Below are positions 4,275-21,165 of a stretch of 21,165 nt of DNA, piece after piece. Within the stretch, counting starts at the first letter, position 1, and the number at the start of each line of letters is the position of its first letter. Source of the stretch: a virus; IMG/VR virus record IMGVR_UViG_3300020160_001258, positions 1 to 21,165 of that record. One strand, 5' to 3'. Below the pieces are notes generated by a model that worked only from the letters and a program-made list of their open reading frames with translations, was not told the origin of the DNA and searched no databases. A program made the translations under genes and the position numbers.

Positions 4275-5225
4275 TTATTTTACACTGAAAGTTTGTTTGT
4301 TCGCCTGCTCTTTCGCTATCCCATACTGAGAAGCTACCACCTCTCTTATTGATATACCGCAATATGATAATATCTTGGCCACCAATAAGTACTCATAATC
4401 TGCAGGAAGCTCAAAATCCTGATAATCAGGCTGAGACTGATTAAATACAGGTTCCCCGTTCGCTAATGTACTATAAGTCCATTTCGGCTCCTTAGGATAC
4501 CTGAAGTAGTCGGCTATAACTGACCCATACGTATTAATCGTACTTGGATAACACACTACAGCATCTCCAATCATTGTGTACGAAGGGTACGCTTTTGTTG
4601 GACTTGTTAAGTTCGATGCGTTCAATCTCGTTATATCAGCGTTCGAAACCTTTTCTGCTATAGAGGTCGCACTCCCGCTATATATATAATACACATTCCC
4701 TATTGTAGTGAATATATCTGACGACAAAACTAACTCCGTAGCACCCGTTACGCTAATAACCGTAGATGATAAAAACGTAGTCGCATTGACAATAAAATCC
4801 CCTGCGGCAATCCCATCTGTAACAAAATCAGCAGAAGAGTCATTTAGCTCATTAGCCGCAACTGAAGTTGCAGTACCGCTACTAAGTGTTGACGTGTTAA
4901 TAGCAATCTTGCTAATCATATACGCAAAGTCCCCCGTAGTTATCACCGATGGTTGATAAAATGAGTTATTAGCCTTTATAACGAGAGCCTTACTTGTAAG
5001 GAACATCTCCAATACCTCCTCTATCGCTTTTTTCATATCGGCATAATCAGTCCCTGAGGCTCTTAAGTTCTCAGCATTTATGGCTAAGTTGTAATCCTTA
5101 AACAAATCCTCAAACAGCTCCATTTGTGCATTCAATGCAAATAGATTAAAGTCCGATGGAGATACATAGCCGTAATTGTTTTTATTTAAAATAGCAAGTA
5201 CAGCATTCCTTACCGAATTTATCAT
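4275..5225 (-). CDS. Putative neck/connector protein with inserted beta module (316 aa)
   Basis: I chose ATG 5225 (MINSVRNAVLAILNKNNYGY) over the ATG 13 codons upstream. The extra residues (MCPLFCIFVKILE) overlap a terminator and a promoter-like TATATTTG and look non-coding. The protein opens with a helical region rich in F, L and N (SPSDFNLFALNAQMELFEDL, about 22-41). About residues 117-188 form a beta module with GDFIVNATTFLSSTVISV and LVLSSDIFTTIGNVYYIYSG, also present in the protein at 16966-17508. The second half contains DITRLNASNLTSP and DYFRYPKEPKWTY, which I associate with neck/connector proteins of Bacteroidota phages. It is the first gene after the terminator at 5249-5280 and is followed 7 bp later by another connector-like gene. 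The shared module looks like an insertion into a standard connector fold. Confidence 0.7.
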   Translation of the reverse strand: MINSVRNAVLAILNKNNYGYVSPSDFNLFALNAQMELFEDLFKDYNLAINAENLRASGTDYADMKKAIEEVLEMFLTSKALVIKANNSFYQPSVITTGDFAYMISKIAINTSTLSSGTATSVAANELNDSSADFVTDGIAAGDFIVNATTFLSSTVISVTGATELVLSSDIFTTIGNVYYIYSGSATSIAEKVSNADITRLNASNLTSPTKAYPSYTMIGDAVVCYPSTINTYGSVIADYFRYPKEPKWTYSTLANGEPVFNQSQPDYQDFELPADYEYLLVAKILSYCGISIREVVASQYGIAKEQANKQTFSVK

Positions 5226-5239
5226 CTCTAAAATTTTGA

Positions 5240-5247
5240 CAAATATA
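5240..5247 (-). promoter_or_regulatory. Bacteroidota-type -7 element upstream of tail module
   Basis: The minus strand reads TATATTTG, an exact TAnnTTTG match, about 15 bp before the ATG at 5225 and directly downstream of a rho-independent terminator. No TTG is present at the usual -33 spacing, so this is a weak candidate. A promoter here would let the tail genes be read independently of the capsid unit. Confidence 0.3.
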
Positions 5248-5248
5248 C

Positions 5249-5280
5249 AAAAAAGGGGGCACATTAATGTACCCCCTATG
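5249..5280 (-). terminator. Rho-independent terminator after capsid-adjacent gene
   Basis: On the minus strand GGGGG (5276-5272) pairs with CCCCC (5259-5255) around a 12-nt loop that itself contains the palindrome ACATTAATGT. The stem is followed at once by six T residues (5254-5249). It sits between the stop at 5297 and the start at 5225, in the only sizeable gap in this part of the block. The other strand also has a T run after the stem (CCCCCTATGTTTTTTT), so it could work in both directions. Confidence 0.8.
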
Positions 5281-5296
5281 TTTTTTTATTTTTAAA

Positions 5297-6055
5297 TTAA
5301 TGCTTAGCTACTGCGTCAAGCGTTTTCAAGGTGTCAATGCCTTCTTCGCTTTGTAAATAGCGGCAAGCTGCATCATATGGAGTCTCCCCAAATGGGACAC
5401 TCATAAGCTTAACCTTCTTCCCTTCGGTGTGAATCCACAAATCCCTGTCGTTGTTTTTTGCGACAAGTAATCCTTCTTCGAAAAACATTCTAACATTAGC
5501 TTGGTGTTTCAATTCAGGGTCTCTTGTAATATCAAGAAACGATTTAGGGTTCGTCTTTGCGAATACCCTTACATCTCTCTTTAGTTCGCTATTGGCAACT
5601 TTTGACGGGTCTTTACCAAATATAACTCGGTAAACCATTTCGAGTTGAGCTATCGTCATTTCTCTTGACTCCTTTACGGCATCATCTTCGATATCCATCA
5701 TCTCAATCTCTTTGGCTGCATCCTTCTCTTTATCAACCTCGGTAAAGACTATGTCTCTTAGTGGGTGGTAATGAAGCATAGCTTGCAGTGATGGCTTGTT
5801 AAATGGAACGTGTAGCATACCATCCTCAAAAATAATAGGCTCTAAAATTGAGTTCCCATCTTGTTCATCCTCAAATGGAGAATTTTGGTTTGACGCATAT
5901 CTCAATGCTCGGTTCTCGTTCTTCTCCTCATCATACCATAGTAATGGGAATTTTGGATGGTTTCGAGATGGCAATGTGTAAGATAACGGAGACCCCCCTA
6001 ATAGTCGGTAGGTCTTGTCTTTTGGTGTTGTTTTTGCTTGTTTTTTTACTGACAT
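5297..6055 (-). CDS. Capsid-adjacent conserved phage protein of unknown role (252 aa)
   Basis: I place the start at ATG 6055 (MSVKKQAKTTPKDKTYRLLG). The frame is open back to ATG 6115, but those 20 codons run into the hairpin that follows the capsid gene, so the shorter form fits better. The protein is soluble and charged. It has a basic N-terminus, then FPLLWYDEEKNENRALRY and SPFEDEQDGNSILEPIIFED (roughly residues 38-76), an acidic segment (IEMMDIEDDAVKES, about 117-130) and a C-terminal part with VPFGETPYDAACRYLQSEEG. I know of no enzymatic motif. I recall similar proteins beside the major capsid gene in marine phages. Its position between the capsid gene and a strong terminator suggests a head-associated or capsid-decoration role, but that is inference from location only. 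Confidence 0.65.
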   Translation of the reverse strand: MSVKKQAKTTPKDKTYRLLGGSPLSYTLPSRNHPKFPLLWYDEEKNENRALRYASNQNSPFEDEQDGNSILEPIIFEDGMLHVPFNKPSLQAMLHYHPLRDIVFTEVDKEKDAAKEIEMMDIEDDAVKESREMTIAQLEMVYRVIFGKDPSKVANSELKRDVRVFAKTNPKSFLDITRDPELKHQANVRMFFEEGLLVAKNNDRDLWIHTEGKKVKLMSVPFGETPYDAACRYLQSEEGIDTLKTLDAVAKH

Positions 6056-20677: not shown

Positions 20678-20707
20678 CAAATTTAATACTAATATCTAAA
20701 CTAACAA
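20678..20707 (-). promoter_or_regulatory. Bacteroidota-type promoter for the groEL cassette
   Basis: On the minus strand TTG (20707-20705) is followed after 19 bp by TAAATTTG (20685-20678), an exact TAnnTTTG match. It lies 36 bp before the groEL start, giving a leader of about 28-30 nt. Both elements and their spacing fit the Bacteroidota housekeeping promoter, which suggests that the cassette is read by host polymerase. Confidence 0.6.
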
Positions 20708-20805
20708 AAAAAACTTTTAATTCCAAAAATGTCAAAATAAAAGTTCCCTATTATATATATATATTCTATTATACTTTATTTTTTTTTATATTATAAAATA
20801 AGAAT

Positions 20806-20822
20806 AAAATCGACATTATCGA
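20806..20822. repeat. 17-bp direct repeat, copy 1
   Basis: AAAATCGACATTATCGA, identical to the sequence at 20982-20998. It contains one CGACA box, with a second CGACA starting at its end (20820). It is directly adjacent to the A/T-only-like tract. Confidence 0.8.
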
Positions 20823-20860
20823 CACTATTCCCAATTGACAATAGTTTCAGAGAAAAAAAA

Positions 20861-20898
20861 CGACACAATCTTGACATTAGACCGACATAAAAGTGTCA
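20861..20898. repeat. Left phased box cluster (CGACA/TGACA)
   Basis: CGACA at 20861, TGACA at 20872, CGACA at 20883 and the inverted TGTCA at 20894 begin exactly 11 bp apart, about one helical turn. The boxes would therefore face the same side of the DNA. Confidence 0.6.
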
Positions 20899-20915
20899 AA
20901 AACTACCCCAAAATA

Positions 20916-20981
20916 CCCTAAAAACATATGTGAAAAATACATATAAGTAATATTCTTCATGGATTCAGGTGCTTTTTAGGG
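20916..20981. repeat. 9-bp inverted repeat CCCTAAAAA / TTTTTAGGG
   Basis: CCCTAAAAA at 20916-20924 and TTTTTAGGG at 20973-20981 are perfect inverted repeats around a 48-bp A/T-rich spacer. TTTTTAGGG appears again at 21091-21099, just after the last 22-bp repeat. Confidence 0.6.
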
Positions 20982-20998
20982 AAAATCGACATTATCGA
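20982..20998. repeat. 17-bp direct repeat, copy 2
   Basis: AAAATCGACATTATCGA, identical to 20806-20822. Here it continues as TGTCACC, so that GACAT (20988-20992) and ATGTC (20998-21002) form a small dyad. Confidence 0.8.
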
Positions 20999-21037
20999 TG
21001 TCACCTTTTTGGTCTAAAATGACGACTTTTTACCACC

Positions 21038-21095
21038 TTGTGTCGGTTTTTTATCCATTTTGTGTCGATTTTTTGTCAGTTTTGTGTCGATTTTT
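21038..21095 (+). repeat. Iteron-like array, three 22-bp direct repeats
   Basis: TTGTGTCG starts at 21038, 21060 and 21082, an exact 22-bp period. Each copy continues G/A then TTTTT. A half-period box TGTCA at 21074 and a degenerate TATCC at 21052 fall 11 bp after the preceding TGTCG, so boxes repeat each helical turn. A weaker TGACGACTTTTT copy at 21020 precedes the array. Confidence 0.7.
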
Positions 21096-21165
21096 AGGGG
21101 TAAGATATAGGAAGATTTGGGGTAATATGGTACATTTTGCGCCGGCGTTTGAAATGGGAAAGTGA

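Follow-up and report, generated by a model that had tools for sequence, protein, structure and literature searches.

What does an array of helically phased TGTCG boxes do beside the groEL gene of a phage? The window in which it lies, the whole 21,165-nucleotide IMG/VR record of viral DNA analyzed here, covers part of the genome of a Bacteroidota podophage of ~60 kb. Matches to its terminase come from Flavobacterium and Cellulophaga podophages, and the nearest GenBank record is MW202828, which is circular and 60,850 bp long. Phages of marine Bacteroidota that carry groEL and are related to Cellulophaga phage phi38:1 have already been described (PMC5332604). Between groEL and the end of the window lie 523 bp of noncoding DNA. 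A contig that is 97.8% identical to the window over 8.1 kb (L004) runs past position 21165 and adds about 1.5 kb more of noncoding DNA; on this contig, groEL and a leftward gene encoding an HTH-type protein of 204 aa are separated by a divergent intergenic region of 1.95 kb that contains the array. The leftward gene (L004, 3436 to 4050, minus strand) represents a family without a Pfam match and in many relatives is divergent from groEL. Overlapping inverted repeats (GTCTATA, CTATATAG, and CAATTGTC) are dense in the remainder of this intergenic region (L004, 4921 to 5400). Compared with sequenced phages by DNA similarity, the intergenic stretch gave only short AT-rich matches, an Rfam scan found no RNA family, and a scan for sigma-70 promoters and terminators gave matches at chance level.

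Chance is excluded as the source of the boxes in the window and of their 11-bp phasing. TGTCG occurs eight times on the two strands of the 523-bp stretch, compared to a mean of 0.44 and a maximum of 4 in 5,000 shuffles, and the number of boxes on both strands rises to 14 when TGTCA is included. Seven same-strand TGTCR pairs are spaced exactly 11 or 22 bp apart, versus a shuffle mean of 0.004. The boxes are not equally dense elsewhere, since no other 294-bp stretch of the window holds more than two. The first-pass annotation had described two clusters with box starts 11 bp apart. Three boxes of the left cluster start where it placed them and read CGACA at 20861, TGACA at 20872, and CGACA at 20883, which on the minus strand are TGTCG (20883 to 20887), TGTCA (20872 to 20876), and TGTCG (20861 to 20865); the fourth, at 20894, is TGTCA in reverse orientation. 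The right cluster was recovered in full, with TGTCG at 21041, a degenerate TATCC at 21052, TGTCG at 21063, TGTCA at 21074, and TGTCG at 21085. This inverted cluster is found only in the small clade of the window (L004 and, in part, L005), and the parts of the window conserved in relatives are the left cluster, a box doublet, and the AT tract (Table 1). The doublet and the last tandem box are 41 bp apart, and a further single box is present at 20987. A 17-bp direct repeat (AAAATCGACATTATCGA, 20806 to 20822 and 20982 to 20998), 9-bp inverted pairs (AAATCGACA/TGTCGATTT), and the near absence of G/C from the AT tract (3 in 60 positions) were likewise confirmed.

Table 1. Features of the window that bear on the box array
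Feature	Position	Strand	Remark
Winged-helix-like protein, 172 aa	18141..18659	+	Candidate binder in the first-pass annotation; unsupported
groEL, 533 aa	19041..20642	-	Gene downstream of the groEL-side module copy
Promoter match TTG-N19-TAAATTTG, which we take to be the Bacteroidota promoter type	20678..20707	-	Upstream of groEL; pattern match
AT tract	20749..20808		Overlaps the least stable 100 bp of DNA in the near-identical contig L004/G001
Box doublet TGTCGATAATGTCG, spacing 9 bp (20811/20820)	20811..20824	-	Mostly once per contig in relatives
Linker/dyad element, GAAACTATTGTCAAT in the window	20834..20848	-	Between tandem array and doublet
Tandem array, three boxes 11 bp apart	20861..20887	-	Position and phase kept in relatives
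Extra inverted array, TGTCG/TGTCA, spacing 11 and 22 bp	21041..21089	+	Only in the L004/L005 clade

About 40 relatives share a layout that consists of tandem boxes at 11-bp intervals, an AT-rich dyad element, a doublet with a spacing of 8 to 9 bp, and an AT tract. Among relatives whose boxes read TGTCG, the doublet TGTCG-N4-TGTCR hardly varies and the upstream boxes hold their position, the indels between the two groups being 10 bp long; the pattern TGTCGANNATGTCR (at most one mismatch) is found upstream of groEL, in most cases at a single place per contig. A second group of relatives has the identical layout built from TGTTA/TGTTG or TGCTT, other relatives build it from TGCTC or TGACG, and L209 builds it from ACCTA. 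The spelling therefore differs by clade (TGTCG, TGTTR, TGCTT, TGCTC, TGACG, or ACCTA) while the layout is constant. The spacing is also conserved, as the first-pass annotation had suggested checking: the last tandem box and the doublet are separated by 30 to 31, 41, or 51 to 53 bp, which corresponds to three, four, or five helical turns, and the phases cluster at a period of 10.5 bp (P = 0.007, five distinct values). The earlier proposal that this locus serves an oligomeric protein as its binding platform is supported. tRNA-like sequences are inserted in or beside the module region in L047 (about 5200 to 5300) and, upstream of groEL, in L034 and L036, and the region upstream of groEL in L054 and L042 contains long simple-repeat runs (CACGCACA and CACCACC units).

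The element that links the two box groups reads TAACTWATTGATWATYAAT in most relatives and matches the IHF consensus there. The linker contains the consensus WATCAANNNNTTR at 21 of 39 loci, as exact matches to YAANNNNTTGATW (1.9 expected), and is degenerate in the clade of the window. Exact matches were also found in 11 of 23 stretches upstream of primase genes (0.5 expected); locus counts of this kind are not independent because the sequences are related, and the least affected statistics are the within-genome permutation given below and the distinct-distance test. The lowest-stability 100-bp segment of the contig lies at one of two module sites in 15 of 21 contigs, which is support for an easily melted tract rather than proof of it because a high AT content is usual for intergenic DNA.

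Searching viral contigs with the linker returned many more modules, along with unrelated matches to its AT-rich pattern, and in three of the matching phages the module directly preceded a primase-helicase gene. A second copy at this place proved to be present in nearly all relatives whose primase-helicase gene could be read. All nine long relatives carry boxes and an adjoining AT tract in the region upstream of this gene, usually with the doublet and the linker. Most further contigs also have boxes on the primase side, with none there in G029/L178, and several of the copies are degenerate (e.g., G026/L225). The primase-side module is flanked by an SSB-like gene, whose product has an acidic DDLPF-type tail, and the primase-helicase gene. 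Its spelling is that of the phage: at this site, AAGTAAGCACA repeats are present in TGCTT phages and GTAGGTAAAGTAGGTAA in the ACCTA phage. Box words common to both sites within a genome numbered 185, compared to a permuted mean of 79 and a maximum of 142 (20,000 permutations, P = 5e-5). Genome-wide, phased boxes in a phage's own spelling are found mainly at these two sites and lie on one absolute strand wherever both were found. The two copies therefore have opposite orientations relative to the downstream gene, with the AT tract facing groEL at one site and the tandem boxes facing the primase gene at the other. The contigs of the window clade in this analysis stop short of the primase gene, and we assume that the window's own phage has a primase-side copy. 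A layout that is kept at two sites while its boxes are re-spelled points to a start site for DNA copying together with its own reader protein.

We propose that the phage has an initiator-binding module in two copies, of which the array is the one on the groEL side, and that this module is most likely a replication origin; we put the probability of this reading at about 0.58. The phased boxes, bend element, unstable tract, position next to the replication gene cluster, fixed orientation in the genome, and shared spelling are best fitted by such a module. The first-pass annotation had offered a replication initiator or a late-gene regulator as the binding protein, and the evidence favors the initiator. 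The regulator would act at the primase and late (groEL) operons as an early-to-late switch with no role in replication. Both copies do adjoin operon starts, where sites upstream of promoters or start codons resemble operators: the promoter match is ~100 bp from the groEL-side doublet, the primase-side boxes extend almost to the start codon, and the two sites have a common spelling. However, the geometry of the module relative to the gene is opposite at the two sites, other operons have no module, and the spacing of module and groEL ranges between about 150 bp and about 1 kb with an intervening gene (L047/L035; L031/L045). Furthermore, the module persists in a contig without groEL (G027/L208), which at 53 kb contains structural and replication genes and, as its only copy, a full module at the primase gene, may be incomplete, and yielded no groEL/groES, winged-helix, or 204-aa HTH gene. 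We consider two-site transcription control, the main rival reading, rather unlikely. A functional link to the chaperonin, whose cassette the first-pass annotation had noted next to the array, is likewise not supported: the same contig has the module but no groEL, and the module is separated from groEL by a gene in L047 and L035 and additionally by a tRNA-like sequence in L047.

Cumulative GC skew had been suggested as a test of the origin reading. Its minimum falls in or at the edge of the intergenic region in most long relatives, but this signal is confounded because gene direction switches there and a lone opposite-strand gene cancels the skew locally. Direct repeats 11 bp apart also recall parC, and arm-type sites together with IHF recall attP. 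A ParR/parC-like partition site or a set of integrase arm sites is nevertheless very improbable: a phage-integrase domain was found in 0 of 9 long contigs, a nonexhaustive scan of the proteins revealed no ParM/ParR-type gene, and the module has two copies in a fixed genome orientation, one of them inside the replication gene cluster.

If the module binds an initiator, the reader of the boxes is possibly the modeled C-terminal winged helix of the primase-helicase, which sequence comparison and structure models make the leading candidate rather than an identification. Pfam recognizes a primase domain (BT4734-like/PriCT) and DUF5906 in this protein, and its C terminus is modeled as a helix, a recognition helix, and a β-hairpin wing. 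A fold search with the C terminus gave no significant match, with the P4 origin-binding domain at E = 0.8. The primase tree requires at least five changes of spelling, with TGCTT and TGCTC arising separately. Three of the four parallel substitutions common to both TGCT-box clades fall in the last 60 residues of the primase. When more genomes are included, two TGCT-clade substitutions persist relative to six TGTTR phages, S/H770V and R791K, and these map to the recognition helix and wing of the modeled domain. Parallel substitutions are common in these genomes (38 in 5,489 columns of other proteins, examined as a control), so their count was dropped and only their location is suggestive. The C terminus is also the fastest-evolving part of the primase, and for both reasons the evidence does no more than suggest this reader. 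The ACCTA-box phage and the TGTTR phages have almost the same recognition helix.

Other DNA-binding proteins of these phages were considered as readers. The winged-helix protein near groEL, which the first-pass annotation had named as a candidate binder, was rejected: its recognition helix does not differ between TGTTR and TGCTT phages and varies within the TGTCG group, thus failing to change with the boxes, and its gene is missing from a module-bearing contig. Two separate short HTH proteins that resemble domain IV of DnaA (PF08299, without the ATPase part) are encoded in the replication gene region (MW202828, 51033 to 51335 and 60107 to 60676) and have homologues in relatives. They were rejected as readers, as their recognition segment is constant across box types. 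The 204-aa HTH protein might instead read the array as a regulator or a partition-like protein. Its gene adjoins the intergenic region in many relatives, its model shows a helical HTH-type domain, and the TGCTT clade has fixed differences at 3 of 210 positions, including a suggestive one, Y93H, in the presumed recognition helix. However, the TGCTC clade retains Y93, a fold search returned no significant match, and several contigs that carry the module, among them G031, G041, G049, and G027, yielded no homologue, all of which makes this protein an improbable reader.

From these patterns we infer origin activity, bending, melting, and the identity of the reader, which for the initiator-binding module would combine as follows. 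A phage protein would occupy both the doublet and the tandem boxes with their 11-bp phasing. The AT-rich dyad element between them would bend, probably assisted by a host protein of the IHF/HU type, and thereby bring the two box groups together, and the adjoining AT tract would then melt. Because the primase-side copy is just upstream of the primase-helicase gene, the initiator could also control its own synthesis, as is the case for the initiators of iteron replicons, and such self-control is a likely second role of the module.

Iteron plasmid origins of the pSC101 and R6K type combine phased direct repeats, an IHF site, and an AT-rich region, and repeats lie upstream of their initiator gene as well. 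The module likewise has direct repeats with helical spacing and an adjoining AT-rich, easily melted tract, as well as an IHF-type element and a copy upstream of the candidate initiator gene. It differs in that no RepA/Pi-type initiator was seen, the phage is of a lytic type, and the doublet has a spacing of 8 to 9 bp. DnaA boxes were also not enriched, with no exact match in L004; some iteron origins have no DnaA boxes. Phage P4 has two separate cis sites, ori1 and crr. In relatives of the window phage, the same repeats likewise occupy two separate putative cis sites per genome, and the primase-helicase is a multidomain protein with a putative winged helix, as modeled here. The winged helix of P4 α binds the origin repeats, and the protein then unwinds and primes (PMC4234260). 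Unlike the Toprim-type primase of α (PMC4234260), the primase here is BT4734-like/PriCT, and the boxes are 11-bp phased, accompanied by an IHF-like element, and re-spelled between clades. In PLE, the Vibrio parasite of phage ICP1, relatives differ in their origin repeats and, in step with these, in the part of the initiator that binds DNA (PMC8263062). PLE has three ~30-bp semipalindromic iterons and a RepA_N reader, in contrast to the 11-bp boxes and two sites described here, where a joint change of the reader is only suggested. The domain order of the replication protein resembles that of the primase-SF3 helicase-winged helix proteins of the pRN1 ORF904/BIP-1 type. For this class, stem-loop origins were proposed, and the repeats that were found were not counted as an origin (PMC4234260).

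Most uncultured phages have no known origin, and the comparative data presented here define a candidate to the base, at two sites and in many phages. Since the recognition word varies while the geometry is constant, the joint change of an initiator and its binding sites is testable. As a tentative and rather speculative picture, which we consider unlikely to hold in every part, this family of Bacteroidota phages may have two co-oriented, bend-assembled origins read by a self-controlling winged-helix primase-helicase and both re-spelled together with this reader at least five times with the geometry fixed. If this is true, the class of primase-helicases discussed for pRN1 would gain an iteron-like origin in place of the proposed stem-loop.
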